A stretch of DNA of 64,000 nucleotides from Antedon mediterranea. Taxonomy: Eukaryota > Echinodermata > Crinoidea > Comatulida > Antedonidae. Of the stretch, positions 2,462 to 48,094 are shown piece after piece. The notes below the pieces were generated by a model. That model saw nothing but the letters and a program-made list of their open reading frames with translations, did not search any database and was not told where the DNA came from. The stretch spans positions 372,001 to 436,000 of the forward strand of contig NC_092672.1 in NCBI RefSeq assembly GCF_964355755.1. The letters run 5' to 3'. The position numbers and the translations under genes are program-made. Position 1 is the first letter of the stretch. Each line of letters starts with the position of its first letter.

Positions 2462-5400
2462 GTCAAACCTTTGCGGGCACATCAGAATCAATGGTAACTC
2501 CGAGAACAAACGGAACACAAGGTACGACACAATAGTTACGATATACAACATAACGACATTTTCAGTACCACATACCTTACTATTTGACTTTAAATAATAT
2601 AAATAAACTTTAATTTTAAAATTGTTTCTCTCTCTCTTACTCTGACAAAACGTGATCTAGGTCCCACTTCAGAGTACACGTCAGAATCAACTTAAAAGAT
2701 AGTCCAACACAAGGCAGGATCATTATATCAGTTACAAAAATCCATACGTTTATACATCAGTCAAAAAACATCTATTTTCACCTAGAAAGCATCTTCCTAT
2801 TTTGACTTTAAAATAAATAATGGCCTTGATTCCATCCAAAATCTACCGTATATAATAATATATAATTACCATAATTATTATGAATAATTTATTTATAATT
2901 ATTTTGTTATATATTTACAGAAATGGATTTTCTAAGTGAAATTTCAAATTTATCCAAGGTATTGTGCAAGTTAATAGCGAAACATGAATAGTTATAACAT
3001 AAAACGTTCATAATTTGAATAACACCTTTTTCAAGGAAAGTGTTTGATTATAACGGATAACAATATTGACTCTATTGCCATATAACCATGTCAAAGATGG
3101 CTTTCATTTATTCATTAGAATATCACTGAGGAAAATGTAGAATATGTTGCTAGAGATTTGGAACAACTCACGTATAGAAAAGAAAAAACAGAAGAGGGTC
3201 TATTACCGGCTGAAATTAAAGAGATCTCACATGTACTAGAAAGCATCGTGCAAGTTAAATCACCAAATCAAAATGTTAGTATCGCAAACAATATTGTCTT
3301 ACATTTACCATCATCATCGTAATAATAATTATCATCCTCTTCATCATCGTTATCGTCATCGTTATTATCATCATTTATCATCATGCTGCACCTCTACCTT
3401 CTCATACTCGTCACAGCATCAACGTAACCAACATCATCACCATAATTATTAACATCTTTATTGTCGACATCATCAGTTTTGATTGTATGATTTCTTTTGT
3501 CGTTTTCGTCTTCATCTATGATCGGCACTGATAAAAACAATCTTTGTATTTGCATAACAGGTGACAGAAGCTGTAGTTGGAACAATGAATACTGTTCTTT
3601 CTTCTAATTCCTCTCCTTTTGGGTTAGAAAAAGCAACCACGTCACAGCTCCTTCAATCTTTAGAACAACAAATCGCTACAACCGCTACCGATGGCCAGAA
3701 TTATACGCAGAAAGAAACTATCATTTCGATTACAACGTTTAATTTTGAACCGAAAGAATTACAGTCAGATGTTGTGTTTTTTGTAAACAATCAATTCTCT
3801 GACATATGTGTTGATGATACTTGTGGAAACAATGATAATGTTATGCGTTATTCTATTACACTTCCAAAGTCAATTTTGCTTCCCAGAACTGGTAGCGTAT
3901 ATTTTTTTTTCTTTTTATAACTAACACTGTTCCCTTCAATTCATTTCATTTTGAATTTAAATATATTTTTGACACAAACTTGAACTACAGTTGGTATTAT
4001 TATTAATCTAAAATTAAAATAGACTGGGTTACAATACTAAATTATTATGGTCGTTGTAACTCGTAGTTTCGGGCAGCTTCTAGGTCGGGATTCACTGAAC
4101 AACCCTTTGAAAATGTTACTTTATACTGAATTTTGTCGTTCTAGGAATTATGAACAACGTGAGCTTCGTCACTGAATTTAATACGAACCTGTTCCAGTCT
4201 ACCATGAAATATTTACAAATATCAGACGTGGTTCTATCAGCTACTATTTACGACGAAAACCTCCCAAATGTATTTGATGAACCAGTTACTGTGGTTTACA
4301 GAATGGCAATGGTATGTACAGTGGAATTATTGTTTTCATTACAATTTAACAGATTTAATCCACTACAGTATATGATGATTCAATGTAGGCCTACCAAAAG
4401 AAACTTTATAGATTGTGCACCTAAGAGATTGCGCACCTAAGAGATTGCGCACCTAAGAGATTGCGCACCTAAGAGATTGCGCACCTAAGAGATTGCGCAC
4501 CTAAGAGATTGTAAGATTGTATCTCAGTATATTATGCATATTATGTTCATTACAGAACAGTACAACAGTAACACCTTCCTGTGTATTTTGGAACGAATCT
4601 TTAAACGAGCTTGGCGATTGGTCAGATAAAGGCTGCAAGTTGACAGAAATCAACTACGAAGGCAGTATAACATGTCAATGTACACATTTAACCAATTTCG
4701 CCATTTTGTTTGTAAGTAAATACTAACTATAATCATTAAGAACACAATCTATGTCATGTACGAGAGTGATGTGACTTTTGTTTTTGACTGTAACTCAGAA
4801 AAAATATAATTTCTATGTACATTTTATATGCAAATGACGATAAATGGAAGTAATTTTGCACTGATGAATGAATGAATGTCAGCAATGTTCTTTTAACTTT
4901 CTTTCTAAACGATTGATACATTATATTTACATAACAGTTTCCAAATGATATGGTTCCAGCTGTCGATCGATTTCTTGAGCTAGTAACATACATAGGCTGT
5001 GGAATGTCCGTCATTTGTCTCACATTAACTATCGTAACCATTCTTTTTAATAAGTAAGTTATTTCGTTTCATTTCTCTTTATTTCGGAATTCATAGAAAA
5101 CAGTACATATTATTTAAAAACTAATCCATCAAAGATGATATCAGCATGTTTGATAGTACATTTGAAATAACTGTTCGTTTGTTCTATTACGTATTCTTTC
5201 TTTATACCAGTCTTTATTCTGAATGATACTTTTAATACATTGCTTTTGAAGTGGCTCAGTACGTAAATCATTCTGAATGATACTTTTAATACATTGCTTT
5301 TGAAGTGGCTCAGTACGTAAATCAACAATATGTAATATAGTAAATTTTAATAAAAATTATTATTAATATAAATTCATTAAGGGACGATTGATAAAGAGCG

Positions 5401-8037
5401 AAATATTTGAACATTTAACGAAAAGCGCCTGCCTGCAATTGTTTCTGTACAAATTAGCTATTTTCACACATATTTAAATAAATTGATAATGTATATTTCA
5501 TATAACAATCATGACTTATTTTCACAGAAAGCTGCGTGTTCGTCCGCCTCAAATCATAATGATAAACTTGTGTATATCCTTGCTGTGTTTGTACCTCATA
5601 TTCATGTTAGGTATTGAGCTACCAGATCCTGGAACAACATCATGTAAATTGGTTGCTGTACTCATCCATTATTTTCTGCTATCCTCTATTGCCTGGACGT
5701 CCGTGGAAGCTATCAATATGTATTACCTAGTTGTAAAGGTATTTGACACGCCGAAATCGTCATTTATATGGATGGGAGCAGTATTTGCTTGGGGTATGAT
5801 TAGCGTTTTCTTTTATTTGTTTATTATTATAGTTCATTCTCTAAAAAAGAATCAGGTACTTTTTTAAAACATTTCTAAAGATCATGTGATTACCCGTGAT
5901 TATACAAATATGATTTATGGTAGAAATCATGACTGCTCACCTAAACAGTACACAATGATACCATAATCATCGTCCTTCTCACCCACAGTACACAGAGATA
6001 CCGTAATCATCGTCCTTCTCACCCGCAGTACACAGTGATGCCGTAATCATCGTCCTTCTCACCTACAGTACACAGTGATACCGTAATCATCGTCCTTCTC
6101 ACCCACAGTACACAGTGATACCGTAATCATCGTCCTTCTCACCCACAGTACACAGTGATACCGTAATCATCGTCCTTCTCACCCGCAGTACACAGTGATG
6201 CCGTAATCATCGTCCTTCTCACCTACAGTACACAGTGATACCGTAATCATCGTCCTTCTCACCCACAGTACACAGTGATACCGTACTCATCGTCCTTCTC
6301 ACCCACAGTACACAGTGATACCGTAATCATCGTCTTTCTCACCCACAGTACACAGTGATGCCGTAATCATCGTCCTTCTCACCCACAGTACACAGTGATA
6401 CCGTAATCATCGTCCTTCTCACCCACAGTACACAGTGATACCGTACTCATCGTCCTCCTCACCCACAGTACACAGTGATACCGTAATCATCGTCCTTCTC
6501 ACCCACAGTACACAGTGATACCGTAATCATCGTCCTTCTCACCCACAGTACACAGTGATACCGTAATCATCGTCCTTCTCACCCGCAGTACACAGTGATT
6601 CCGTAATCATCGTCGCTCTCACCTACAGTACACAGTGATACCGTAATCATCGTCCTTCTCACCCACAGTACACAGTGATACCGTACTCATCGTCCTTCTC
6701 ACCCACAGTACACAGTGATGCCGTAATCATCGTCCTTCTCACCCACAGTACACAGTGATACCGTAATCATCGTCCTTCTCACCCACAGTACACAGTGATA
6801 CCGTACTCATCGTCCTCCTCACCCACAGCACAGTACACAGTGATACCGTAATCATCGTCCTTCTCACCCACAGTACACAGTGATACCGTACTCATCGTCC
6901 TTCTCACCCACAGTACACAGTGATACCGTAATCATCGTCCTTCTCACCCACAGTACACAGTGATACCGTAATCATGCGTCCTTCTCACCCACAGTACACA
7001 GTGATACCGTACTCATCGTCCTTCTAATAATATTTTCCTTTTCTTACATTAATGTAGGTACTCCATTTGTTATAGTGGTTGCTTTACTTCTTATCGAGTT
7101 ATATAGACCTTTTGGAAATTCTACGAAAACATCATTCTATGAAAACGATGCATAGTAAGTAGGCCTAATGTCATTGTTACATGTCTCTCATAAGTGAATC
7201 ATAAATGAAAATATTATTATTTTAACTTAAATGGTTCTGCAAAGATGACTCTAAGAAACTTTCTTCCTAAAACAACAAATATGTTAAATCAATCTTTATT
7301 TGCATTTTCTGTACTTTTATCGTTTCTTGTTGTTTACAGCATTTAATATCATAATGTTTATCTTACAGCTGTTACATAGCAAGTGACGTCACATCATATC
7401 GTTTCTTGTTGTTTACAGCATTTAATATCATAATGTTTATCTTACAGCTGTTACATAGCAAGTGACGTCACATCATATCGTTTCTTGTTGTTTACAGCAT
7501 TAAATATCATAATGTTTATCTTACAGCTGTTACATAGCAAATGACGTCACATCATATCGTCTGGAATACATATGCGTTCTACTGGCTCCGATTTGTTCCG
7601 TCGTCCTCTGTAACTGTATCATCTTTACACGAGTTATCTATAAGCTGTTCATTGTAGGTACAATGCCGTCAAGAAAGCATCAAGGATCGCCGAAAGAAAA
7701 GAAAAAACGAGTTTCAAATTCTATAGCAATATGTCTACTTTTAGGTCTCACTTGGATGTTTGGGTTCCTTTCATTCGACTACCCTGGTAACGTGGTATTC
7801 CTAACTTTGTTCTGCATTTTAAACTCTTTCCAGGGCGTTGCTATCTTCTATTTATTTTGTATCAGAAATGAAGAATGTCAAAACGTCTGGAAAATATGCA
7901 GACGTAAAAAAGTTCACAATCGTATCCATTCAGACGACAAACAAGTAATAATGACCATAACAAACAAAACTATAAATGTAACATCTGCATCGTCAGCATA
8001 TCCAGAACGAAAAATTCTGGTCAACAATTTTCTTTAA
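2462..8037 (+). CDS. Adhesion G-protein-coupled receptor (GAIN-GPS-7TM), 5' incomplete
   Basis: Ten phase-consistent exons: 2462-2521, 2921-2958, 3119-3274, 3561-3891, 4145-4311, 4556-4711, 4938-5053, 5528-5793, 7058-7154 and 7527-8037 (stop TAA), about 632 codons. The first exon is a Ser/Thr-rich linker; the next four look like a GAIN domain. Exon 4556-4711 encodes a textbook GPS: paired Cys and Trp residues followed by [13 protein letters not shown], with autocleavage expected at HL|T. TM1 lies in 4938-5053, TM2-4 in 5528-5793 ([11 protein letters not shown] is the usual TM3 word, joined to [11 protein letters not shown] of TM4 across the intron), and TM5-7 in the last exon ([27 protein letters not shown]). 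The short cytoplasmic tail is basic, then Ser/Thr-rich. Family members sense matrix or cell-surface ligands through a tethered agonist exposed at the GPS. The subfamily cannot be decided without the ectodomain. The first three exons are less certain than the rest. Confidence 0.92.
2640..2830 (+). pseudogene. Decayed duplicate of aGPCR linker exon
   Basis: About 2655-2715 resembles the exon at 2462-2521: both begin after an AG with a GT, share 'acatcagaatcaa'-like sequence and end in 'aacacaag'. The downstream flanks also match (a 'tttgactttaaa' word near 2582 and 2809). The copy has an in-frame TAA and its donor reads GC rather than GT, so it is probably no longer spliced in. Read as a local segmental duplication. 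Confidence 0.5.
3298..3390 (+). repeat. ATC/ATT-type microsatellite
   Basis: Imperfect run of 'catcat', 'cgt' and 'att' triplets inside an aGPCR intron, upstream of the exon at 3561. Confidence 0.6.
4411..4512 (+). repeat. 16-bp tandem repeat in aGPCR intron
   Basis: About six copies of GCGCACCTAAGAGATT lie in the intron just before the GPS exon; the array ends about 45 bp before the acceptor. Confidence 0.85.
5217..5324 (+). repeat. 54-bp direct duplication
   Basis: Two near-identical tandem copies of a segment starting 'ttctgaatgatacttttaat' in the intron between the TM1 and TM2-4 exons. Confidence 0.85.
5945..7026 (+). repeat. 40-bp minisatellite, about 27 copies, with acceptor-like word in each unit
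   Basis: The period is 40 bp, seen directly from recurrence of 'ccgtaatcatcgtccttctc' every 40 bases, with a few point variants and one unit lengthened by extra 'cagcac' near 6825. It fills most of the intron splitting TM4. Every unit carries 'tccttctcacccacag', a pyrimidine tract followed by CAG in the sense direction, i.e. a 3' splice-site look-alike. The true acceptor is downstream at 7057. Confidence 0.97.
7319..7560 (+). repeat. 79-bp triplication spanning an intron-exon boundary of the aGPCR
   Basis: Three tandem copies (starting 7319, 7398 and 7477) each contain a pyrimidine-rich tract, 'atcttacag', and the first 30-odd bases of the last aGPCR exon (CTGTTACATAGCA...). Only the third copy runs on into the open reading frame (TAC|C... 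encoding [15 protein letters not shown]); 79 is not a multiple of three, so using copy 1 or 2 would shift the frame and reach a TGA. Each copy also includes the CRE-like palindrome TGACGTCA. Confidence 0.93.
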
Positions 8038-12318: not shown

Positions 12319-15300
12319 ATGAACATAGAAAGTCTTCCGTTACCATCGATCATTAGACAAAAGCTCTTTGGAGCTGGTTTTCTTACTCTTGATGATTTTA
12401 ATGGGTTGAAACCGTCTCAACTTTCAAAAGGTAAGCATGTCGCGGTACCTTAAATAACGGCCTAGCTTAGGCCCTGGCCCTATGTCGGATTACTATCTAC
12501 ACACATCGGCTTCCGCCCCAATCTTGCCGGCCCGTGACTAGTCTGTTGTCTATGTTTATGTTCATTCTGATTGGTCAGTTTTGGCTGTTACTTTCCTGGA
12601 ATTAAATATCTCTAGGCTAGAGTAGAAGAGGCTGGTGATGAATGGTTAAAAAAATCTTTTTTTTATTTTAGCTTAATTATAATTTGTTAACAACTTATTG
12701 AAAAGAATGCTTTTTTAATACATTGTCATTGTTGTGTGTGTGATGTTGGTTGGTACTTGACATTCACCAGAGATATTATTTTATAGCGCAATATGCTTTT
12801 ATTTTACCATGAGCCACGAGAATCTTTGTAAATTGTATGTTATTACCATTTTTGTTTTACTTTGAAGAACTTAATAGTTCATTAGAAGAAGCATGTGAAG
12901 TCTTAAAAGCAATTGATGATGTGAATCTGGTCCGGAACACGTTAAAAGATGGCACTAATGGATGTCGGATGGCCTTGGAGATCCTGCAAGAGGAACAAAG
13001 ACAACAAAGCATCATCACCTTCTGTGAAGAGATTGATGATATGTTAGGGGGCGGTATTCCCCTTGGAAAGACGACAGAAATATGTGGTGCTCCTGGTGTG
13101 GGAAAGACACAAATGTGGTTAGTAGAAAATGGTATTACCTCTCTTATATAAATTAACCGTTCCCTTCAATTTCTATTTTTTCATTAATTAATAATTTTTC
13201 AAAAAGAACATAACAAATAGGTTATAACAAAACAAAAAAACAAAAAGAAATAGCTCAAAATCCAAATGACTGGTTAAAACCACAATGCAGAATGAATCAC
13301 TTTCAAGTGGCTCACCAAAATGCAGAATGAATCACTTTCAAGTGGCTCACCAAAATTGAAAATAGTTTTTCCATTTATAATTCTAGTACTGTATGCAATT
13401 TAAACAAATTTACTAACAGTATAACTTAATTTGGATTTACAGTTTCTTGCGCGAGTGTTTTTGTGTAGAAATTGAATTCATTGTTGGGGGTAGCCACGAG
13501 CGGAAAAACAATCATACAAAAAATCTAAATTTTAAAGTAAAAAAGTTGGCTTCTGAGAGTGTGTCCAGTAAAAGAGGTCACAGGGAGACTCAGTTGTAGA
13601 ACAATTGTTTTCACAATCCCCTTTTTTTATTTCTGAGAACAGCATGCAATTGGCAGTTGATGTCCAAATTCCAACCGTTTTTGGCGGAATTGAAGGAGAA
13701 GCTTTGTACATAGACACAGAAGGTAGCTTTATCGTAGAAAGAGCATCGGAGATTGCCACAGCTGTAGTAGAACATTGTGGACGTATAGCAGCAAGCCAAC
13801 AGAATCATGGTAAGCAAACTCCCTCCAAACGATTGGCACAAACTAGTTTGACGAGAAAAGTGTGCCCAAATATGGTAGTGATATGGCATTATCACAATTT
13901 TTTGTCACATACAAAGCTTTATACTTTGTGATTTTTAATTTACATTGCATAATAATTGTAATGCTGTGAAATTCAGATTTTACTGCGATATTTACAAACG
14001 TGATCTTTATGTGAACCTGCATAAAGTTCAGAAATAATGTGCTCTTTAATTCTTTCTAACATACATGAGCAGGTTAGCAAGAAAAAATGTTTTTGTTTTC
14101 ACATTTGTTTTAGATCAACTGAACGCAATGATTACATTTACAGAAGATAGTGTACTGTCTGGAATTCATTACTCAAGATGCCAAGACTTTGTGGAACTCA
14201 TTGCGTTCATAAATACTCTACCCAAGTTCCTCAGCTCACATCCTAAGGTGTTGTTAACATATTGCGTTCATAAATACTCTACCCAAATTTCTCAGCTCAC
14301 ATCCTAAGGTGTTCTTTAACATATTGCTTTCATACTCTACCCAAATTTATCAGCTCACATTATCCTAAGGTCTTGTTTTAACATATTGCATTCATAAATA
14401 CTCTACCCAAATAAGGTCTTGTTTTAACATATTGCATTCATATATACTCTACCCAAATAAGGTCTTGTTGTTAACATATTGCATTCATAAATACTCTACC
14501 CAAATAAGGTCTTGTTTTAACATATTGCATTCATAAATACTCTACCCAAATAAGGTCTTGTTGTTAACATATTGCATTCATATATACTCTACCCAAATAA
14601 GGTCTTGTTGTTAACATATTGCATTCATAAATACTCTACCCAAATAAGGTCTTGTTGTTAACATATTGCATTCATAAATACTCTACCCAAATAAGGTCTT
14701 GTTTTAACATATTGCATTCATAAATACTCTACCCAAATAAGGTCTTGTTTTAACATATTGCATTCATAAATACTCTACCCAAATAAGGTCTTGTTTTAAC
14801 ATATTGCATTCATAAATACTCTACCCAAATAAGGTCTTGTTTTAACATATTGCATTCATAAATACTCTACCCAAATAAGGTCTTGTTTTAACATATTGCA
14901 TTCATAAATACTCTACCCAAATAAGGTCTTGTTTTAACATATTGCATTCATAAATACTCTACCCAAATAAGGTCTTGTTGTTAACATATTGCATTCATAA
15001 ATACTCTACCCAAATAAGGTCTTGTTGTTAACATATTGCATTCATAAATACTCTACCCTAATAAGGCCTTGTTTTAAGATATTGCGTTCATAAATACTCT
15101 ACCCAAATAAGGTCTTTTTTTAACATATTGCATTCATAAATACTCTACCCAAATAAGGTCTTGTTTTAACATATTGCATTCATAAATACTCTACCCAAAT
15201 AAGGTTTGTTTTAACATATTGCATTCTTAAATACTCTACCCAAATAAGGTCTTGTTTTAACATATTGCATTCATAAATACTCTACCCAAATAAGGTCTTG

Positions 15301-18300
15301 TTTTAACATAATTATTGCATTCATAAATACTCTACCCAAATAAGGTCTTGTTTTAACATATTGCATTCATAAATACTCTACCCTAAGGTCTTGTTTTAAC
15401 ATATTGCATTCATAAATACTCTACCCAAATAAGGTCTTGTTGTTAACATATTGCATTCATAAATACTCTACCCAAATAAGGTCTTGTTGTTAACATATTG
15501 CATTCATAAATACTCTACCCTAATAAGGCCTTGTTTTAAGTTATTGCGTTCATAAATACTCTACCCAAATAAGGTCTTTTTTTAACATATTGTGTTCATA
15601 AATACTCTACCCAAATAAGGTCTTGTTTTAACATATTGCATTCATAAATATACTCTACCCAAATAAGGTCTTGTTTTAACATATTGCATTCATAAATACT
15701 CTACCCAAATAAGGTCTTGTTGTTAACATATTGCATTCATAAATACTCTACCCAAATAAGGTCTTGTTAACATATTGCATTCATAAATACTCTACCCAAA
15801 TAAGGTCTTGTTTTAACATATTGCATTCATAAATACTCTACCCAAATAAGGTCTTGTTTTAACATATTGCATTCATAAATACTCTATCCAAATAAGGTCT
15901 TGTTTTAACATATTGCATTCATAAATACTCTACCCAAATAAGGTCTTGTTGTTAACATATTGCATTCATAAATACTCTACCCAAATAAGGTCTTGTTAAC
16001 ATATTGCATTCATAAATACTCTACCCAAATAAGGTCTTGTTGTTAACATATTGCATTCATAAATACTCTACCCTAATAAGGCCTTGTTTTAAGATATTGC
16101 GTTCATAAATACTCTACCCAAATAAGGTCTTTTTTTAACATATTGCGTTCATAAATACTCTACCCAAATAAGGTCTTGTTTTAACATATATTGCATTCAT
16201 AAATACTCTACCCAAATAAGGTCTTGTTTTAACATATTGCATTCATAAATACTCTACCCAAATAAGGTCTTGTTTTAACATATTGCATTCATAAATACTC
16301 TACCCAAATAAGGTCTTGTTTTAACATATTGCATTCATAAATACTCTACCCAAATAAGGTCTTGTTGTTAACATATTGCATTCATAAATACTCTACCCAA
16401 ATAAGGTCTTGTTGTTAACATATTGCATTCATAAATACTCTACCCTAATAAGGCCTTGTTTTAACATATTGAGTTCATAAATACTCTACCCAATAAGGTC
16501 TTGTTTTAACATATTGCGTTCATAAATACTCTACCCAAATAAGGTCTTGTTTTAACATATTGCATTCATAAATACTCTACCCAAATAAGGTCTTGTTGTT
16601 AACATATTGCATTCATAAATACTCTACCCAAATAAGGTCTTGTTGTTAACATAATTGCATTCATAAATACTCTACCCAAATAAGGTCTTGTTTTAACATA
16701 TTGCATTCATAAATACTCTATACAAATAAGGTCTTGTTGTTAACATATTGCATTCATAAATACTCTACCCAAATAAGGTCTTGTTGTTAACATATTGCAT
16801 TCATAAATACTCTACCCAAATAAGGTCTTGTTGTTAACATTTTAAGGTGTAAGACCAGTTTTTAATTCTACAGTTTAATATATTATTCCAAAAAAAATTT
16901 CCAAATAAATATATAAGCAGATAACATATTAATATTTTATTTCTTATTTTAGGTACGAATTATAATTATAGATAGTGTGGCATTCCATTTTCGACATGAT
17001 ATTGACAACTTATCATTGAGAACTCGACTTCTAAATGGACTCGCACAGAATCTTATCAAGCTCGCAATGGAGAATACTATTGCGGTAAGGTGTCTGCTTT
17101 TGTTATTTTTATTTTCAACTTTGTTTATAGAGGGTAACCTATCCAGCTGGACCAATTAATGCCAGTAGATATTTAGGGGCCCTCTTAAATAACAATAAAA
17201 TACATAAAAATGATAAATAACATTTTTATTTATCTTAAATATAAATGGAACAGTCCTCATATTTCAGCACTTACAACAGCCATCAAATAGTACACCCTCA
17301 TATTTCAGCACTTACAACAGCCATCAAATAGTACACCCTCATATTTCAGCACTTACAACAGCCATCAAATAGTACACCCTCATATTTCAGCACTTACAAC
17401 AGCCATCAAATAGTACACCCTCATATTTCAGCACTTACAACAGCCATCAAATAGTACACCCTCATATTTCAGCACTTACAACAGCCATCAAATAGTACAC
17501 CCTCATATTTCAGCACTTACAACAGCCATCAAATAGTACACCCTCATATTTCAGCACTTACAACAGCCATCAAATAGTACACCCTCATATTTCAGCACTT
17601 ACAACAGCCATCAAATAGTACACCCTCATATTTCAGCACTTACAACAGCCATCAAATAGTACACCCTCATATTTCAGCACTTACAACAGCCATCAAATAG
17701 TACACCCTCATATTTCAGCACTTACAACAGCCACCAAATAGTACACCCTCATATTGCAGCACTTACAACAGCCATCAAATAGTACACCCTCATATCTCAG
17801 CACTTACAACAGCCATCAAATAGTACACCCTCATATCTCAGCACTTACAACAGCCATCAAATAGTACACCCTCATATTTCAGCACTTACAACAGCCATCA
17901 AATAGTACACCCTCATATTTCAGCACTTACAACAGCCATCAAATAGTACACCCTCATATTTCAGCACTTACAACAGCCATCAAATAGTACACCCTCATAT
18001 TTCAGCACTTACAACAGCCATCAAATAGTACACCCTCATATTTCAGCACTTACAACAGCCATCAAATAGTACACCCTCATATTTCAGCACTTTCAACAGC
18101 CATCAAATAGTACACCCTCATATTTCAGCACTTACAACAGACATCAAATAGTACACCCTCATATTTCAGCACTTACAACAGACATCAAATAGTACACCCT
18201 CATATTTCAGCACTTACAACAGCCATCAAATAGTACACCCTCATATTTCAGCACTTACAACAGCCATCAAATAGTACACCCTCATATTTCAGCACTTACA

Positions 18301-21300
18301 ACAGCCATCAAATAGTACACCCTCATATTTCAGCACTTACAACAGCCATCAAATAGTACACCCTCATATTTCACCACTTACAACAGACATCAAATAGTAC
18401 ACCCTTATATTTCACCACTTACAACAGACATCAAATAGTACACCCTCATATTTCACCACTTACAACAGACATCAAATAGTACACCCTCATATTTCACCAC
18501 TTACAACAGACATCAAATAGTACACCCTCATATTTCAGCACTTACAACAGCCATCAAATAGTACACCCTCATATTTCAGCACTTACAACAGCCATCAAAT
18601 AGTACACCCTCATATTTCACCACTTACAACAGACATCAAATAGTACACCCTCATATTTCAGCACTTACAACAGACATCAAATAGTACACCCTCATATTTC
18701 AGCACTTACAACAGCCATCAAATAGTACACCCTCATATTTCAGCACTTACAACAGCCATCAAATAGTACACCCTCATATTTCAGCACTTACAACAGCCAT
18801 CAAATAGTACACCCTCATATTTCAGCACTTACAACAGCCATCAAATAGTACACCCTCATATTTCAGCACTTACAACAGCCATCAAATAGTACACCCTCAT
18901 ATTTCAGCACTTACAACAGCCATCAAATAGTACACCCTCATATTTCAGCACTTACAACAGCCATCAAATAGTACACCCTCATATTTCAGCACTTACAACA
19001 GCCACCAAATAGTACACCCTCATATTGCAGCACTTACAACAGCCATCAAATAGTACACCCTCATATCTCAGCACTTACAACAGCCATCAAATAGTACACC
19101 CTCATATCTCAGCACTTACAACAGCCATCAAATAGTACACCCTCATATTTCAGCACTTACAACAGCCATCAAATAGTACACCCTCATATTTCAGCACTTA
19201 CAACAGCCATCAAATAGTACACCCTCATATTTCAGCACTTACAACAGCCATCAAATAGTACACCCTCATATTTCAGCACTTACAACAGCCATCAAATAGT
19301 ACACCCTCATATTTCAGCACTTACAACAGCCATCAAATAGTACACCCTCATATTTCAGCACTTTCAACAGCCATCAAATAGTACACCCTCATATTTCAGC
19401 ACTTACAACAGACATCAAATAGTACACCCTCATATTTCAGCACTTACAACAGACATCAAATAGTACACCCTCATATTTCAGCACTTACAACAGCCATCAA
19501 ATAGTACACCCTCATATTTCAGCACTTACAACAGCCATCAAATAGTACACCCTCATATTTCAGCACTTACAACAGCCATCAAATAGTACACCCTCATATT
19601 TCAGCACTTACAACAGCCATCAAATAGTACACCCTCATATTTCACCACTTACAACAGACATCAAATAGTACACCCTTATATTTCACCACTTACAACAGAC
19701 ATCAAATAGTACACCCTCATATTTCACCACTTACAACAGACATCAAATAGTACACCCTCATATTTCACCACTTACAACAGACATCAAATAGTACACCCTC
19801 ATATTTCAGCACTTACAACAGCCATCAAATAGTACACCCTCATATTTCAGCACTTACAACAGCCATCAAATAGTACACCCTCATATTTCACCACTTACAA
19901 CAGACATCAAATAGTACACCCTCATATTTCAGCACTTACAACAGACATCAAATAGTACACCCTCATATTTCAGCACTTACAACAGCCATCAAATAGTACA
20001 CCCTCATATTTCAGCACTTACAACAGCCATCAAATAGTACACCCTCATATTTCAGCACTTACAACAGCCATCAAATAGTACACCCTCATATTTCAGCACT
20101 TACAACAGCCATCAAATAGTACACCCTCATATTTCAGCACTTACAACAGCCATCAAATAGTACACCCTCATATTTCAGCACTTACAACAGCCATCAAATA
20201 GTACACCCTCATATTTCAGTATATTAATTCACAAAATTGAAATATTAGAGTACACACCTAATTTTGAGGTACACACCTACTGTGTAATTGGTGACAGTGG
20301 CTTAGGCTGCTTTTGTGCTTTCCTGGCAGCTAGTATGATGAAACTATGATTTTTATATTTTCTCTTTGCGTCATGTTTGCTTAACTTGTATAATGTATCT
20401 TTTTTCTCTTTAAGTAATATATATTGTTTGAAGGTTTGCATAGCAAACAGAACTAGATACTGTACGTGGTGTACCGCAAACTTTATATGAAAAAAATTGA
20501 AATCATTGAATTTTTTCAGGTGGTCCTAACAAACCAAATGACAACAAAGTTTGGTGGTGAAGACGGAAGCTCGCGCTTAATTCCTGCTTTAGGAGAAAGT
20601 TGGGGGCATGCTGCGACCATCAGAATGATACTCTATTGGCAAGCAAGTCAAAGGTATTGTTGTCTATAGGAATAATGTCTTAACTGGAGTTATAGTTCAT
20701 AGTTATGAATGTTGGCTATATAATAAATGATAAAACTAAGCACAAATCTTTTTATTTTATCTTTCATCGTTAACCATTACCTTTATTCATTCAATGTCCT
20801 AATTTTGTATACATCTTCTACCTATTTTTGTGTATTATTCTGTTTGTGTATAGATTGTTAACATATATCATACTTATTAATACTATCACCCCATTACATT
20901 ATTTATGTTACAGTAATGCTAACAAATTGTAATACTTCTCTTTCATCTATAACTCTCATCTAAACATGAATCTTGCTTGTACCTAAGAAAGAAGTCTTGA
21001 GCAAATCTATGTTGGTGAATGTAGAACAAATTAAACACTATAAAAAACATTAGTTAATTCATATAGTGTTGTGATCAAAAGTTATTCTATGTTTTATGAA
21101 GAATCGTTATTCCAAATAATTATTAATAAATTAAATAATAAAATATATTTGTTTAGGTTAGCAATGCTATATAAGTCACCCTCAAGACAAGAAAAAACTG
21201 TACCATACCAAGTGGCGGTGAGAAGAATTAGCACAGCTTTCTTTTTTTGTAGATCCAATAGATTGTAAAGTATTAAAATTGGTACTTACTACGACGTTGT

Positions 21301-23097: not shown

Positions 23098-23400
23098 GTA
23101 TCCGGATATTCACCCCCTGGACATTTACCCCCCGGACAACTACCCCCCGGACAACCACCACCTGGACCACTACCCCCTTAGGACAACTACCCCTTTAGGA
23201 CAACTACCTCCCGGACAAATACCCTCCGGACAACTACCCCCTTAGGACAACAACCCCCTTAGGACAACTACCCCCTGGACAACTACCCCCCGGACAATTA
23301 CCCCCTAGGAACAATTACCCCCCGGACAATTACCCCCCGGACAATTACCCCCCGGACAATTACCACCCAGAAAACTATCCCTTTAGAACACCCTAACCAC
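23098..23400 (+). repeat. C-rich 'ggacaactacccccc' minisatellite
   Basis: About 20 degenerate units of 13-18 bp, 'ggacaactacccccc' with 'cttag' variants. It is inverted relative to the G-rich array at 24520-24815. Confidence 0.9.
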
Positions 23401-24033
23401 CCAGACCATTCAACAACCTGACTCTGCAACTATTAATTAATAACTATATTTTAATTCGTTACTTTGACGAATTACTATTCATTATTGTAAACAAAAGTAA
23501 AAGATTGAACATAAATATAGCCTGGTGGTATAAACTGAAGATTGTCACACATGATCATAGGATAGTCGAACGTATTATATAGTACTCCATGTATTTACTG
23601 TAAAGACTGGGTTCGCTAATAATAATAATAATTTTTGCGTCAGGACAATGCTTCGATAACCACTGGTCTTAAAAGAATTAATTTTTGTCTCAAATTTGTC
23701 ATATATGTATTTTTGTACACTTGAAGAATAATATCACTTTTGATATTTGACCTCAATGTTCACTCACCGAATAAACGTCGATCTTTAAATAAATTCCCCT
23801 CAAATAAACGGTGACCATGTCACTCCTATGAAACATCATATGGAATAATCGGCGTCTATTTCCATTAGATTATACCCCCTCCCATTGAATAAACAACTTT
23901 CTTCCAATAAATGTCCACCTAAAAACCACCTAAACAATAAACAGCCCAGGCCATTTTTTCAATAAATACGGTACTTTAAATCTAGCACATCTAGGGTCTA
24001 GCGTGCTGTTAAACAGAATAATCGGTTAAAAAC

Positions 24034-24459
24034 GGGTGTTTCGAAACTAGAGACCCGAGACCAGAGACCAGAGACCCGAGACCCAATACGAAAAGGGAGA
24101 CCTAAATATAGGAAAAGGGAGACCCATGTACGAAAAGGGAGACCCCACTATACGAAAAGGGAGACCCCACTATACGAAAAGGGAGACCCTAATATACGAA
24201 AAGGGAGACCTAAATATACGAAAAGGGAGACCAAATATACGAAAAGGGAGACCAAAATATACGAAATGGGAAACCTAAATATACGAAAAGGGAGACCCAC
24301 TATAAGAAAAGGGAGACCCCACTATACGAAAAGAGAGACCACACTATACGAAAAGGGAGACCCTAATATACGAAAAGGGAGACCCAAATATAGGTCTCCC
24401 TTTTCGTATTGGGTCTCGTGTCAGGTCTCTGGTCTCGGGTCTCTAGTTTCGAAACACCC
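24034..24459. mobile_element. Foldback/Mutator-like element with 9-bp target duplication
   Basis: Terminal inverted repeats start GGGTGTTTCGAAACTAGAGA and end with the reverse complement. GTTAAAAAC is found immediately outside on both sides (24025-24033 and 24460-24468), a 9-bp target-site duplication. The interior is a tandem repeat of 'tatacgaaaagggagaccc' (about 16 units), so the open frame through it is an artefact. No transposase. Target duplications of 8-11 bp are typical of Mutator-like elements; that classification is inference. Confidence 0.75.
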
Positions 24460-24519
24460 GTTAAAAACAGATGATTTCATTTTTACAGAAACCGGTCCTA
24501 TATTATATTTGTCTACTTT

Positions 24520-24815
24520 TGGATTGGGGGGGGGGGGGGTAGTTGACCGGGGGGTAGTTGACCGGGGGTAGTTGACCGGGGGTAGTTGACCGGGGGGTAG
24601 TTGACCGGGGGGTAGTTATCCTAAGGGGGTAGTTGTCCTAAGGGGGTGGTTGTCCGGGGGGTAGTTGTCCGGGGGGTTGTTATCCTAAGGGGGTAGTTGT
24701 CCTAAGGGGGTAGTTGTCCGGGGGGTAGTTGTCCGGGGGTAGTTGTCCTAAGGGGGTAGTTGTCCGGGTGGTAAACATCCGGGGGGTAACTGTCTAGGGG
24801 GTAGGTGTCCTAGAA
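24520..24815 (+). repeat. G-rich 'gggggtagttgtcc' minisatellite
   Basis: Units such as 'ggggggtagttgtcctaa', the mirror (reverse-complement) counterpart of the array at 23098-23400; starts with a 10-G run. Strong G-quadruplex potential on the plus strand. Confidence 0.9.
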
Positions 24816-38500: not shown

Positions 38501-41500
38501 ACCCAGAATCCAAACCACAAGGCTACTGTATATTATAAACACACTTCACTATAATTCATGAGACTATTAGTAATATTACTGTACCATACATTCAAAAGTT
38601 ACTGGTGGTACTAAATTGATCTTCTAATAAAATATTCAAACTTATAATTATATAAGTTTGATTTCTTTAGGTACACACTGCCAAGGATTGCCAAGAGTGC
38701 CCCCAGAAATGTGACAATTCTGATGCTCTACAAAAAAATCATTCTTGGAAGTCTTTGAGATGGAGTGGAGTGGAGTTGAGATGGAGTGGAGTTCAGTTGA
38801 GTTAGGAGTTCAGTTGAGTTAGGAGTTCAGTTGAGTTAGCAGTGGAGTTGAAATAGACTTTTGGTTTGATAGAGCTCTGAGAGCAGTTTAAGAGTGCTAT
38901 ATAATAAATGCTCAGTATTATTACTTATTATTATTGAACATTTTGGGAGAAAAAATCTGGACATCTGACCGGATTTGAGATAGGTAGCTGAGAATCCAAA
39001 CCACGAAGCTACTGTATATTATTTTAAACACACTTCACTATAATTCCACTATAATTCATGAGACTATTATTAGTATTATTAGCAAACATTCAAAAGTTAC
39101 TGGTGGTACTCAGTCATACAATTTTTATATTTGTTGGCTTATCACTGATATTATTTTAATGTCATTGTTTGGTGATATAACTCTGGCTTAGCGTTTAACA
39201 TATATTTGCAATCTGTAAATGATAAGGACTCATGACTAACACACTTGTGATCAAAAGTAGGTCCATACATTATTGCGTCAACTGATAATGGACCTATTAG
39301 ATACAGTAACTCTTCCAATTACAAACTTGGTTAATAATTAAATTTAAATTTCAAACAGACAAATTTTATTTTGTTCAAAATGAGCACAAACGATAACTAC
39401 ACAGAGTATACACTAATAATTCAACAAAACAATGTAGAATATCAGCATAATCAATTTTAATACGTGTTTGCTACAATAATTATAGTAGCAACAAAAAGTA
39501 TAGTAGCAAAATATATACTGTATATTTTGTTAATATACTGATTGCAATATTTGAATAAGAAGTATAAATTGTATTTAAACTAATTAAGTATGTTCTAGCA
39601 CAAACACTTTTTGCACAAACACTTTATTTTTCAGATTTTCTGTAAAGTTATAGGAAGGTCATTAGGACAGTGCAGACATCCCTCAAGGATAGAAACATAT
39701 TCATAATTCTATATATAGACACAATAATAAAGAAAGCAATAGAATTGCTTAATGAGTAATATGACGTCATGTATCAACTAAGGGGCACAATGATTCCTGT
39801 CAATGTCACACACAATGTCATGTCACACAATGTCAAACTTTGAAAACACTTGTTAATTTTCTGATATTAGTAAGTCATAAATCATTGACTAATATTTGTA
39901 TTACCATAGTTGATATAATATTCTTCAGGGTGTTGGAAAGTAAATTTGACAAATTACAGAAATTGTATGACATAAACTAAACTAAATGTTATTGCTTAAA
40001 TTTGTAGTTTCATTTGGTTTTGAATCACTGTTAGTGAGTATTTTAGAAAATATGGTAAAGTCAAAACTTCAGAAACGTGCGAGTATTTGAATGTATCAGC
40101 AACAATTAACTTTGGAAGATAACATGTTTAAAGTCGAGACTTTACAGAATGATTCAAGTGTTTGAAGGATTTAGAACTATTATTAATATTGTGAAGTGAA
40201 ATGTCTACAGTACATAGTATCAAAGCAGACTAGTGAAAACCCTGACTCATGATTCCGATTATCATTAAGAAAGCAAATTTGTATAAATACAATAAGTATT
40301 TGTTGTTCTGCTACTGTATGTGAATTTAAAAAATTACATTTATAAATATTTTAGCTTGTACAATACATTTTTAACTCTTGTAATAATCATAATGACACGA
40401 GTGTGTATGCATGCCATCCATTTTGTGATGGTCCAAATTTGGGGGTGGGGATACACGCTTAAGTACAGACTTACTGCATCAACATCTTGTAACCTTTGTT
40501 GTATTTCATTGTCTTTTGGGGGTGGGGTTACACGCTTAAGTACAGATTTACTGCATCAGCATCTTGTAACCTTTGTTGTATTTCATTGTCTTTTGGGGAT
40601 GGGGATACACGCTTAAGTACAGACTTACTGCATCAGCATCTTGTAACCTTTGTTGTATTTCATTGTCTTTTGCTCGAAGTTGGTCTCTCTGTCGATCTAC
40701 AGCTTCTTTTAATTTTGTTATCATCTGAATTTCTTGACGTTCAGCCACTTAAAAAATACAAACATTTATTTACATTGCAATCTAAAAAAAAAAACAATTT
40801 CTAAAACCAATGAAATTTAATGAATAATTTCTGGAATGAAAAATACTTTTAATCTTTATGAGATGCAATTACTTTTGATATTGTTCATTAATTTCATCAT
40901 TTCACATCACCTAGCAATCTCCAGAGTTTACTAACACCGCATCACACAAAATGCCGATGTTGAACTCCTGAGTTTGCTTGGCAATATGACTATTCATAAT
41001 CAAGAACTATTTGGCAGATATGATTATTTATCAATTTAGAATTACATTAAACACAAAAAAAGTATTTAAAAATTGATAATTAATTCTTTGATGTGAAAAA
41101 CGTGTAGAAATCTTTTTCAAATTATCTATTTTGTTGACACATGAGTTAACCCTTCAACTTGAATAATAACAAACACTTCCGGATGGAAAATGCCTTCAGG
41201 AAGCCATTAACCAGTGGGTTCACTTCCTTTAATTGTCATAAGAAATCTTGTCACTTACAAGACGATGAAATAGATCTGTCATTTCAGAGATCATGTTTAT
41301 TAATGAGTCTGAGAAAAGTGGACAGAATCCGACCCGACTCAAGATCCTATATCTTTCTTGGATCCTGCCTTCTTCCACTGTGAAAATTGGGACTGGACCG
41401 TTTTAGAGGTGTTTACCACCTGTTGGTCCAGATCCTTCACTAACTGAGTTAGTGAGAAGTCGAATAAATAAAAAAAAAAAAATTCCCTAAGATTTATTGT

Positions 41501-44500: not shown

Positions 44501-47500
44501 TTACTCAGTCTTTCCAAGATTAAAAAGAACACCAATTTTTAGATTTGCTTATTCTTGGTCTGGTATAAATAACTTTTTATATTTCAAAATCTCTCAAATT
44601 AAAACAATAAAATATTTTCTTCATAAGGAAAACTGGTAGGATTATTCATAACTTTGTTAAAAACCTTTTTATATTTCAAAATCTCTCAAATTACAGTAGG
44701 TACAGTAGGCTAATTTAACATGAGCATGAATTTAGTAAACATTTAAAATTACTTCCAGCCACTCTTTTCCCCATAAGGGAAACGGTGGTGATTATTTATA
44801 TCTTTGTTATACCCAGGGGTAATAGGACACTAGGCTTTTTTTATTCATTAGACCCAAAATAAAAACATCATCCTACCACCACCACCACCCACATAATATA
44901 AAATAAGGGTCACATGTAGGGTCACAGGTAGATCAGACCCAGTGACTTCCTTTCCCTCCCACTTCTTTCCTTACAACGTGACATGTCTGGGTACTGATTC
45001 TTGCGATAACATAATTCCTTAATACGCAATTTTATTAATATTACAGAATAACAACTTCAAAATAATTGAGGATTGCAGTCATTAATTTTCGCTTTTATTT
45101 TTATTTGTGATGTCATCTTAGTGATACAATACAGTGGACCCATTTGTTTCATATTTTAAAAAATGGTTGAAATATAGAAAATCTTAATGGCTTGATATAA
45201 AAATGATTAATATTAATATAGACTCTTAGTATTATGCTTAATTTTAATTCAATTTACTTACATTTTTCTCGGTTTGCAATGCCATCCCTAGTTTGCAGTA
45301 TACCTTTAATTGTTTCATTTTCTGACTGTATTTCTGTTATCTCTTCTAGCAGTTCTTTACTTTCTTCTCTCCATGCTTGCTCAACTTTATTTACTTCCTG
45401 TTTAAAAGAATAAGATAAGACTGATGCTTAGCTAAGATAAGAACGATATTTTGCTCCTATCACTTGTACCATTGTGATGCTTACAGTACTTGCTGATTTT
45501 AAACTTAGAAAGAAAAATTGTTTTAATAAAATAAATACTAGTGTTATTCACTATGTTCATCAACTGTGTTCATCAACTGAAGCATTTCTTTAGGTATTAA
45601 TAGTTGCAATGTTTTCAAATACCAGGCAATACTTTTTAAAAGGAAATCCCTTGTACAGTAATTAAACAATGTGTGTGATAAATTTAAAGGGCTAGTTTGT
45701 GATAATTTAAAGGGCTAGTTTGTGATAATTTAAAGGGCTAGTTTGTGATAATTTAAAGGGCTAGTTTGTGATAATTTAAAGGGCTAGTTTGTGATAATTT
45801 AAAGGGCTAGTTTGTGATAATTTAAAGGGCTAGTTTGTGATAATTTAAAGGGCTAGTTTGTGATAATTTAAAGGGCTAGTTTGTGATAATTTAAAGGGCT
45901 AGTTTGTGATAATTTAAAGGGCTAGTTTGTGATAATTTAAAGGGCTAGTTTGTGATAATTTAAAGGGCTAGTTTGTGATAATTTAAAGGGCTAGTTTGTG
46001 ATAATTTAAAGGGCTAGTTTGTGATAATTTAAAGGGCTAGTTTGTGATAATTTAAAGGGCTAGTTTGTGATAATTTTGTAAAATGTTAAACCGACACATT
46101 GTTGATAGCTAAGTACAAAGTGGCTGTGTGTAGTTTACTTATCAGCGCTCAAATAATTAATCATAATTAAAATTTTAACAAATAGTTTCTCTAAATAATC
46201 TGTCCAATTAGTGAATTTAAAAAAAAACAAACAGTGGAATTAAAGCAGACTAAGAGTACTATTAGATAAGACTGAGCGATTCAATCTTATAATTTCACAA
46301 AATAATTTCACTTTGTTTTGTTGACCTTATTTTAAGCAGATTGAAATGATATAGACATACAATTCAACTGAGATTTATTAATTGAAAATGGCCAAGAATA
46401 TCACATTTTTTATTTTTAAATTAAAGAACGTCAGGGTTTGTTCTCCCAATGGCTCACAACAAAGTTTGATGAAATTATCACACTTTATTTGACACTGTTT
46501 AAAAGTTGGATGACGTCATTTAGAAACTGATTTCTGCTGAGTTGTTATGGTGGATTTTTAACACTTTCAAATTAGTTAAAAATGAAACATTTTGATTGCA
46601 AACATTAAAACATTCATGTTTCTTTCATTAATAATAATTTTGTTGAATTCAATTATTGATTTTATCAAAACAAAAATATGTACATTAATTTCATAAGGTA
46701 TTCTTTAAGCTTGAGCGTGGTAGATGTTATAATCTCCTTTGTATTCTGTACTTTAATTGGAAAATGAAAGTGTGACTACAGATATTCTAATCAAGACAGT
46801 ACCAGGCACTCTGCATTTTGTGTTCAGGTACAATATCCACTTTAATACCTAAATCGTTTAAATGTATTATTTATTTTAAATCATAGTCTAAATCATTCTG
46901 TCATAGAGTATAGTAATGTATTTCTCTATATAGTGCATACAGTATGTGACCTAGTTTAAAGTTGTAATAATTGTACATGGGCATATTGAAGTTTGCAATC
47001 TTTCTGATATTACTGTATGTTCTATTGTGGAGACATTCTCCTGACAAATGGATGAAAATAAAATTAAACAAAATAAAAACATTGCATATGACTAGCCTAA
47101 TATAAAGATCCTAATATAAAGATCTTAATATATAGTATATTATATACTACAGTAGTAGTACTCTAGACAACTAGGTACCTATGACGTATGATGTAAATAA
47201 CTAAAAAAAGTATATGTATTAATTATTAAACACTATGAAATTTATGGAATATTATGAACACCAACATTCAAGAACGACAAAATGAAACAAAAATGCTGAC
47301 CGCTTTCAACCTTGCTATTTCCGCAGTTTTCTTTGCATTTTCGTTCATTAAAACACTTATTCTTTCCTTGCCTTCCTCGGACTCCCCACTACGTGTTTCC
47401 AAAGTTCGTACACACGACTCCAGCTGCTCCAAAACACGGATGATCAGCGGCATCAAATCGGTAACAGCCTCGCTACCATAGTCTTCGATTTGTTTCTTTA

Positions 47501-47558
47501 GTTCTTCGCCGATATCAGCTGCAATTCCATGTACATCTACTACTGTAAGTTCCGACAT
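29192..47558 (-). CDS. RILPL: RILP-like protein (RILPL1/2 family)
   Basis: Minus-strand exons in transcript order: 47558-47301 (ATG), 45397-45262, 40747-40629, 37974-37783, 37443-37277, 35119-35039, 34206-34156 and optionally 33852-33786, then a 3' exon at 30961-30550 or 29540-29192. Joining exon 7 to 30961-30550 gives 471 residues; joining to 29540-29192 gives 450. Exon 1 holds the RH1 domain (ELTVVDVHGIAADIG...LMPLIIRVLEQLE); exons 2-4 are a long coiled coil (MITKLKEAVDRQRDQLRAKD); exon 5 is the RH2 domain (DLRDPNRPRFTLKELQTVLQ), which in this family binds phosphorylated Rab8/Rab10 GTPases to control ciliary traffic and lysosome/centrosome transport. The SGIRKL word after RH2 is family-typical. 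The RILPL1-versus-RILPL2 identity is not resolved. The first donor (GCG|GTCAGC) is weak. AATAAA on this strand lies at 30394-30389. Confidence 0.9.
30550..30961 (-). CDS. Ser/Pro-rich 3' terminal exon of RILPL
   Basis: Follows 'tatttttcag' and runs 137 codons to TAG. It is rich in SP/TP sites (SKSPRTPSQRSTPNTPG), then SQSDWEIVNFDIDDANEI, and ends in a lysine/arginine/glutamate-rich tail. The acceptor also requires an incoming phase-2 exon, so exon 7 joins in frame, whereas exon 8 (33852-33786, ending in phase 0) does not unless another acceptor such as 'tttctccaaag' is used. Confidence 0.65.
31643..31745 (+). repeat. About 33-bp tandem repeat, 3 copies
   Basis: 'ttaattaattcagatgtatg' + 'cactgtaaatata' repeated in a RILPL intron. 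Confidence 0.85.
31966..32155 (+). mobile_element. tRNA-Gly-derived SINE
   Basis: The head 'tgtagtggttaacatgcttg' + 'ccttccaa' matches the D-arm and UCC anticodon loop of the intact tRNA-Gly gene at 58022-58093; the B-box reads 'gggttcaatcc'. It is followed by a non-tRNA body of about 100 bp and an A-rich tail ('ataaaaaaaagaaataaaat'). This is a short interspersed element. Confidence 0.75.
32237..32417. mobile_element. MITE with about 40-bp inverted repeats
   Basis: The left arm 'gcttggttcccactagaacg' + 'taacgcaaggacgtaa' is inverted at the right as 'ttacgtccttgcgttgcgtc' + 'gctagtgggaaccacgc'. An internal 'caatcacaagcg'/'cgcttgtgattg' pair extends the palindrome. Length is about 180 bp. No coding capacity; target duplication not resolved. 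Confidence 0.75.
34275..34406. mobile_element. AAAGCTCTGTCTACAC-family MITE
   Basis: Inverted termini 'aaagctctgtctacactatc' and '...tagacagagctt'; the interior has 'gtgatgtgcccatatggaca'. In a RILPL intron. Confidence 0.8.
35159..35388 (+). repeat. 32-bp tandem repeat, 7 copies
   Basis: Units 'ttgttgctttactcaagtta' + 'agttgtacttaa', starting about 40 bp beyond the acceptor of RILPL exon 6 on the minus strand. Confidence 0.95.
36355..37110 (+). repeat. 47-bp satellite, 16 copies
   Basis: Units 'agaaggtaacaaacatccta' + 'gggagtagtagtaagcacag' + 'ctgagtt', nearly identical (only 'catccta/cataccca'-type single changes late in the array). On the RILPL sense strand each unit contains 'ctactactccctag', an acceptor look-alike. 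Confidence 0.97.
38190..39115 (-). repeat. About 450-bp tandem duplication with tRNA-like word
   Basis: 38200-38620 and 38615-39115 share 'gatttctttaggtacacact' + 'gccaaggattg', 'gtgacaattctgatgc', 'ttggaagtctttgaga', 'gacttttggt' and 'ttcactataattc' in the same order. Both contain a 'tggacatctgagcggatttg' word whose reverse complement resembles a B-box (ggttcaaatcc), suggesting an old SINE inside the duplicated unit. Confidence 0.65.
40444..40670 (-). repeat. 79-80-bp triplication spanning the RILPL exon 3 donor
   Basis: Three tandem copies of 'acttactgcatcagcatctt' + 'gtaacctttgttgtatttca' + 'ttgtcttttg', plus the intronic 'cacgcttaagtacag'. On the minus strand each copy is the 3' part of exon 3 (NEIQQRLQDADA) with its GTAAGT donor. 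Only the highest-coordinate copy continues into the complete exon (40747-40629). Confidence 0.93.
41320..41480 (+). mobile_element. Possible SINE-like tail
   Basis: A GC-richer block ('ggaccgttttagaggtgttt', 'ccacctgttggtccagatcc') ending in 'gaataaataaaaaaaaaaaa'. The poly-A end suggests a retroposed sequence; no tRNA head is visible. Confidence 0.3.
42102..42270 (+). repeat. About 55-bp tandem repeat, 3 copies
   Basis: 'agtattcaacatcacacatc' + 'ttgtgcacttatcaagactt' + 'ctactccaatcac' repeated in a RILPL intron. Confidence 0.85.
42352..42530 (+). repeat. About 62-bp tandem repeat, 3 copies
   Basis: 'aatacatacaggctggggtt' + 'ctgttgatagagatgttcca' + 'accccaccccttctctcatt'; the third copy has an internal deletion. 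Confidence 0.9.
42529..42680. mobile_element. AAAGCTCTGTCTACAC-family MITE
   Basis: 'aaagctctgtttacattatc' at the left and 'tagtgtggacagagctttag' at the right, with the family interior 'gcccaaatatggtagtgata'. Confidence 0.85.
43545..43705. mobile_element. AAAGCTCTGTCTACAC-family MITE
   Basis: Complete element with termini 'aaagctctgtctacactatc' and 'gtgtagatagagcttta', lying in a RILPL intron. Confidence 0.88.
45674..46075 (+). repeat. 23-bp satellite, about 17 copies
   Basis: Essentially perfect repeats of 'gtgataatttaaagggctag' + 'ttt' about 0.3 kb upstream (in transcript sense) of RILPL exon 2, indicating recent expansion. Confidence 0.97.
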
Positions 47559-48094
47559 GATTATCGTAATTACTTTGCAATATTATTGTTTGTTTGATTC
47601 AACATTCTAGAGTTGATTGACGATTACTCACTTTACCGTGTCGTCTGATGTGTGTGTGTGGGACATTCCTCTCACACTTTTGAAAGAAAGGTCAACCAGC
47701 AAGCTCGGGTTTGTTTTGATTGCCATTTACGAATATCACATGACAGGATCAGGTGGCATCAGCTGCCAAAAATTGGCTATATTAAACACGTGAAAATATA
47801 TCAAAATAAAGTATAAACTTTTAAACATTGTTTCTAAACATTTTAAAGTAAAATTGTAGAGCAAGTTAATAATAATAAATAATACGGAATTAATTTATGA
47901 CGGTAAAAAAAGTGGCCAATCACATTTGGCGATTGTAATTGATTGTGCATTGACCAATCAAATTTGATCTAAGGTTTAAAGGGCATTGCGCTTTTTTTTC
48001 GAACTTTGTGTTGTTATACGTAAACATTTTTCAAACCAGTACGTAGGCCTAGTTGTACTTGTATTTACGTTGGATTTACTGTCTTTTTACAAAT
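47559..48094. promoter_or_regulatory. Shared 5' region of RILPL and KMT5A
   Basis: The two start codons face away from each other across 536 bp, so the promoters must lie here or overlap. 'ccaatcaaatttgatc' near 47956 and 'ggccaatcacatttggcg' near 47915 contain CCAAT-type words on the plus strand. A bidirectional promoter is inference. Confidence 0.45.

Follow-up and report, generated by a model that had tools for sequence, protein, structure and literature searches.

A minisatellite probably born from the end of a coding exon fills nearly all of intron 4 of RAD51C in the crinoid Antedon mediterranea

The window, a 64,000-nucleotide stretch of the Antedon mediterranea genome (assembly GCF_964355755.1, contig NC_092672.1; C3:372001-436000), carries the RAD51C gene on its forward strand, together with two further genes, adhesion-GPCR and RILPL-like, in which tandem repeats cover the edge of an exon (Table 1). 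The G+C content of the sequence examined is 33-34%. The spliced RAD51C product aligned with human RAD51C (PDB) at an E value of about 1e-112, and the part encoded by exon 4, whose terminus reads HPK|VR, was gap-free, with the correct frame and length. Two introns of the gene harbor large arrays, in introns 4 and 5, which together account for approximately 5.6 kb of the 8.9 kb spanning exons 1 to 7. That of intron 5 (17255-20219; 41 bp x 72, 98% matches), within which a block of approximately 1271 bp is repeated, is unrelated to the array of intron 4; it was checked for derivation from an exon, and no exon origin was visible.

Table 1. RAD51C exons and exon-edge arrays of the region; positions are those of the window unless preceded by C3.
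Feature	Position	Strand	Description
Adhesion-GPCR array	7318-7560	+	79 bp x 3.1 over 3' splice site and exon start
RAD51C exon 1	12319-12430	+	tblastn and spliced translation
RAD51C exon 2	12868-13117	+	tblastn and spliced translation
RAD51C exon 3	13643-13809	+	tblastn and spliced translation
RAD51C exon 4	14114-14247	+	Acceptor TTTTAG, donor AAG|GTGTTG at 14248; tblastn and spliced-protein alignment
Intron 4 array, unit 1 (founder copy)	14200-14260	+	61 bp: last 48 bases of exon 4 and 13 intron bases; GTGTTGTTAACAT
Intron 4 array, units 2 and 3 (long copies)	14261-14384	+	62 bp each, exon-derived part kept; donors GTGTTC and GTCTTG
First in-frame stop past exon 4 donor	14305-14307	+	TAA in unit 2
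Intron 4 array, units 4-56 (53 shortened units)	14385-16840	+	43-50 bp, mostly 46 or 47; 17 bp of exon-derived part gone
Non-repeated rest of intron 4	16841-16952	+	112 bp; donor-like AAG|GTGTAA at 16844; acceptor TTTTAG ends at 16952
RAD51C exon 5	16953-17084	+	tblastn; spliced translation aligned to human RAD51C
RAD51C exon 6	starts 20520	+	Donor GTATTG
Further RAD51C exon	near 21155	+	
RILPL-like array	40438-40672	-	77 bp x 3.1 over exon end (QRDQLRAKDNEIQQRLQDADA; KLKEAVDRQRDQLRAKDNEIQQRLQDADA) and donor GTAAGT
AKAP10-like array	C3:561474-561799	-	44 bp x 7.5 over exon end (EAQSDAMVLYDK) and donor TAA|GTAAGT
TMEM219/248-like array	C3:608221-609503	-	108 bp x 11.9 over last-exon acceptor (Pfam E=0.09 only); probably exon-edge-born

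Unit decomposition resolved the intron 4 array into 56 head-to-tail units at 14200-16840, and since its non-array part is so short, the 2705-bp intron is nearly all array. The first-pass annotation, made from the sequence alone, had placed the array at 14203-16845, with the exon end correctly located, and had described an exon tail and its donor followed by two longer copies and about 55 short units; this layout holds, with 53 short units counted. Application of TRF to the shortened units returned a period of 46, 53.4 copies, and 95% matches. Their two commonest forms, one of 46 bp (16 units) and one of 47 bp (13 units), are classes of identical sequence which hold 29 of the 53, while units 1 to 3 on the exon side are distinct; the array has thus undergone concerted evolution in its interior, with the boundary units left out. 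When aligned with unit 2, the short form was found to be without 17 bp, TTTCTCAGCTCACATCC, the ends of which are ambiguous by 1 base. The loss of an exon-derived segment had been recognized in the first-pass annotation, which put it at 12 bases. Two substitutions, AAG>AAA and TTC>TTT, separate unit 2 from unit 1 across the 48 exon-derived bases; both fall at third codon positions and are synonymous if read as codons. So small a number does not permit a test, and the change may have occurred in either copy.

A search of the whole assembly (354 Mb, 18 contigs) by BLAST with the exon end produced 42 matches, all within the intron 4 array, with E values for the short units of about 1e-6 to 1e-12; the local alignment score between exon tail and unit was 26, against a maximum of 19 over 1000 shuffles. 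The similarity of the unit to the exon tail, the absence of which had been named beforehand as grounds for discarding an exonic origin, is therefore far above chance. When a 26-base core of the unit was sought with up to 3 mismatches, 50 forward matches were found in the 354 Mb, again all within this array, with no match on the reverse strand and none for a backwards control. Neither BLAST nor the core search of the 354-Mb assembly thus detected the array unit outside RAD51C intron 4.

Because exon 4 is conserved RAD51C coding sequence of the right length, the exon is taken as the source and the array as the derivative. The sequence common to exon and units would equally be expected had a satellite come first and later overwritten or converted the exon end, an order of events which we consider virtually discounted: the RAD51C residues encoded by the exon part are conserved and align with human RAD51C free of indels, the 17 bp that the short units lack are present in the exon, and the unit was not found elsewhere in the assembly. 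The proposal that the array originated from the exon end and its 5' splice site is accordingly upheld, the exon being conserved as protein and the array private to the RAD51C locus. The word "satellite", under which it was first described, is not appropriate. Satellite DNA in the strict sense has its unit at many loci, whereas every core match here lies inside one array, which makes these 2.6 kb at one locus a minisatellite.

The arrangement of the units also bears on the claim that the birth of the array can be read in order, which stands in part. Long copies are confined to the place next to the exon, and both GTCTTGTTTTAACAT and the donor GTCTTG of the short units are already present in unit 3. 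On the other hand, unit 3 bears indels of its own and is therefore regarded as a cousin of the short form and not as its immediate parent, and the GCG of the exon, which is GCA in units 4-18, is encountered again in units 19, 29, 41, 42, and 50. A multi-unit pattern, consisting of two 47-bp units, a CCCTAATAAGGCC form, and a GCG..TCTTTTTTT form, occurs in units 16-19 and again in units 26-29, with an altered version near units 39-41 and 46-49. Such recurring patterns indicate, from the sequence, that units spread as blocks, and, with GCG scattered distally, the place of a unit in the array gives no age. Tandem arrays are often mis-sized, and it may be asked whether mis-assembly made the copy number or the long copies; the distinct, non-random variants of the units, their multi-unit blocks, and the presence of similar arrays with different units in several genes render such an artefact highly improbable. 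While the copy number could be off, the existence and origin of the array would stand regardless.

The region examined for arrays of the same build extends over 264 kb (the window and 200 kb downstream), representing one region of one chromosome. The adhesion-GPCR array covers a 3' splice site, and translations indicated that, of its three acceptors, only the third (before 7527) continues the 7tm_2 frame; the spliced protein matched Pfam 7tm_2 with E=2e-14. The real exon is thus preceded by two array copies, which could serve as decoy acceptors. A 16-bp array at 4410-4511, inside an intron of the GPCR gene, also ends in CCTAAG and was set aside. The RILPL-like array covers a donor, of which the middle copy is decayed and reads GTAAAT. 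The exon by itself gave nothing usable against Pfam and PDB, and the exon upstream of the array matched Pfam RH1 (E=4e-20; 47268-47579); the gene is presumably RILPL-like, its neighboring minus-strand exons matching RILPL1, with four exons in order.

Approximately 125 kb past the window end, the AKAP10-like array likewise covers a donor, and its repeats reach almost to the next exon, YFSLQATDPLGF. Among its seven extra copies, five share an identical GTAAGT, a further one carries GC, and the final copy is broken. A PDB search with its exon was empty and Pfam returned RGS with just E=0.03; we take the gene to be AKAP10-like from this weak RGS match and from the next exon. The reading frame makes it clear that the two pieces are consecutive coding exons. 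Two more arrays are probably also born from exon edges: the TMEM219/248-like one, whose last exon resembles the C-terminus of TMEM219/248, and one of 72 bp x 2.8 that spans an unnamed exon's donor.

Four homology-backed and two probable exon-edge arrays were thereby identified among the 61 arrays with a unit of at least 25 bp in the 264 kb. By a rough estimate, based on 61 arrays, a unit of about 55 bp, and an assumed one exon edge per approximately 600 bp, chance placement would be expected to yield 5 to 6, versus the 4 to 6 seen. No preference for exon edges is needed to explain the counts, since arrays placed at random could be about equally numerous there.

Other repeats of the region were recorded in passing. 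A 105-bp (35-codon) x 8.9 array at C3:479800-481530 lies in a 577-codon open frame and is probably an in-frame coding repeat. The octamer TAGGCCTA occurs 9 times in the window, against 0.6 expected from base composition. Arrays of CCCCCGGACAACT, ATACGAAAAGGGAGACCC, and GGGGGTAGTTGTCC follow one another in the same order at 23112-24810 of the window and, approximately 128 kb further, at C3:522741-524452, a cluster suggestive of a dispersed composite repeat whose end arrays are inverted.

The closest parallel to the RAD51C array is provided by the "mirages" of amphioxus, tandem repeats which span exon-intron boundaries, both 5' and 3', with units of 10-72 bp in Adh3 and of about 150-160 bp in the globins BflGb6 and BflGb9, many of which carry AG/GT; RT-PCR indicates regular splicing, and boundary units escape homogenization (PMC3087553). 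Troponin C and PGBD5 represent further cases (PMC3902484). In the RAD51C array, too, the unit spans a real exon-intron boundary (unit 1 being the exon 4 end with its donor), the extra copies are intronic, and AG/GT is kept in many but not all units (AAG|GT in 49 of the 53 short units, AAG|GC in 4). As in amphioxus, 5' and 3' boundaries of several genes are involved, namely, the donors of the RILPL-like and AKAP10-like genes and the acceptor of the GPCR gene. It differs in being large (56 units, 2.6 kb), in occupying nearly the whole intron, and in an internal deletion by which much of the exon-derived part was lost ahead of amplification. Judged by its architecture, it would therefore belong to the mirage class, which may then reach beyond Branchiostoma, a G+C content of 33% being unlikely for that genus. 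Introns are also gained through tandem duplication of AGGT-containing segments (PMC4974935; Rogers 1989, cited in PMC3087553), in which, as here, a segment with a splice signal is tandemly duplicated and copies end up intronic; the RAD51C case differs in that an existing intron was lengthened, and nothing points to a new one.

Donor strength was evaluated with a human-type position matrix of approximate values; on this scale the RAD51C exon donors score 7.2 (exon 1, GTAAGC), 1.4, 5.1, 0.2 (exon 4), 4.3, and 0.7 (exon 6, GTATTG). Of these six, the exon 4 donor has the lowest score, in line with its first description as weak, and that of exon 6 is nearly as weak. The assertion that each unit retains AAG|GT applies to all short units except the four with AAG|GC. 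The donor GTCTTG is present 46 times (in unit 3 and 45 short units) and scores -3.5, GTCTTT occurs three times (-2.3), and in four cases GT is replaced by GC, which is not a normal donor. GTGTTC, found once (unit 2; -0.1), is comparable to the real donor, the level of which is reached only by one GTTTGT unit (1.5) and by the GTGTAA site at the array end (0.1). Estimates of U1 pairing energy (-5.2 for the real donor, -4.1 for GTCTTG) agree with the matrix scores, and together they indicate that the majority of unit donors fall short of the real exon 4 donor in strength. To speak of dozens of potential donors, as was done at first, is consequently an overstatement. The human IFI6 (6-16) minisatellite, reportedly described by Turri et al. 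in 1995, is said to have units with consensus-like donors, more than one of which is used. It resembles the RAD51C array as an exon-end minisatellite with donor-like sequence in each unit; most RAD51C unit donors, in contrast, are poor and far from consensus-like (GTCTTG, -3.5, versus 7.2 for GTAAGC of exon 1).

The array might nonetheless be considered a regulatory decoy-donor device, in which the unit donors bind U1 away from the real site or serve for splicing at some rate, such that mRNAs extended past exon 4 and prematurely stopped would lower RAD51C dosage, perhaps according to copy number. The retention of AAG|GT in 49 of the 53 short units, the real donor being the weakest of the six scored, and the stop encountered at 14305 upon read-through are what such a device would entail. 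However, the commonest unit donor, GTCTTG, is without a purine at +3 and scores far below the real donor, the AKAP10-like gene has five copies with donors identical to the real one, from which decoys seem to be tolerated, and published mirages are reported without mRNA change (PMC3087553, PMC3902484). We therefore regard this function as improbable. An effect of the array on RAD51C level is possible, with nothing in the donor scores or the sequence that would support one.

We propose instead, with a probability of roughly 0.9, that the array is an intronic minisatellite born at an exon edge, of the amphioxus mirage kind, which arose by duplication, a 17-bp deletion, and subsequent block spread. 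The founding event would have been a short tandem duplication extending from the last 48 coding bases of exon 4 across the 5' splice site into 13 bases of the intron. The exon body would remain joined to the first (outermost) copy alone, later copies would be intronic from the start, and the mRNA would stay intact while the first donor remained in use. With the extra copies intronic and the exon-joined site in use, duplication of the splice site would be nearly neutral and the array free to expand. Reading frames are intact in all four array-bearing genes, which is counted as support for this geometric model. A later internal deletion of 17 bp, presumably in a copy whose donor was already GTCTTG, would then have generated the 46/47-bp unit, which is believed to have spread by unequal exchange or strand slippage, both being possible, several units per block, until intron 4 reached its present length.

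On this evidence, the RAD51C array would constitute a new, large example of an already known mirage architecture. Minisatellite origins are seldom readable, and this one is a readable case: with the founder identified by a conserved exon, the source, direction, and deletion step can be stated from the sequence. A broader proposition, which we offer tentatively and hold to be rather unlikely, is that introns here grow steadily by duplication at exon boundaries (approximately 1 in 10-15 arrays with a unit of at least 25 bp in the 264 kb), probably outside cephalochordates, and that the copy amplified in RAD51C was a splice-weakened one (GTGTTG -> GTCTTG); if so, selection on decoy donors would shape which copies may spread. 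The arrays also bear on the way in which introns gain length from the exon edges that border them, and they carry a caution for annotators, by whom intronic copies of exon ends may be mistaken for exons. The main interest lies in their recurrence and in the range of donor decay, from strong in RAD51C to almost none in the AKAP10-like gene, whose array would be a good place to examine the choice among several equal donors. With no fewer than four arrays of this build in 264 kb, the genome would offer a natural experiment on the choice that the spliceosome makes among tandem donors and acceptors.
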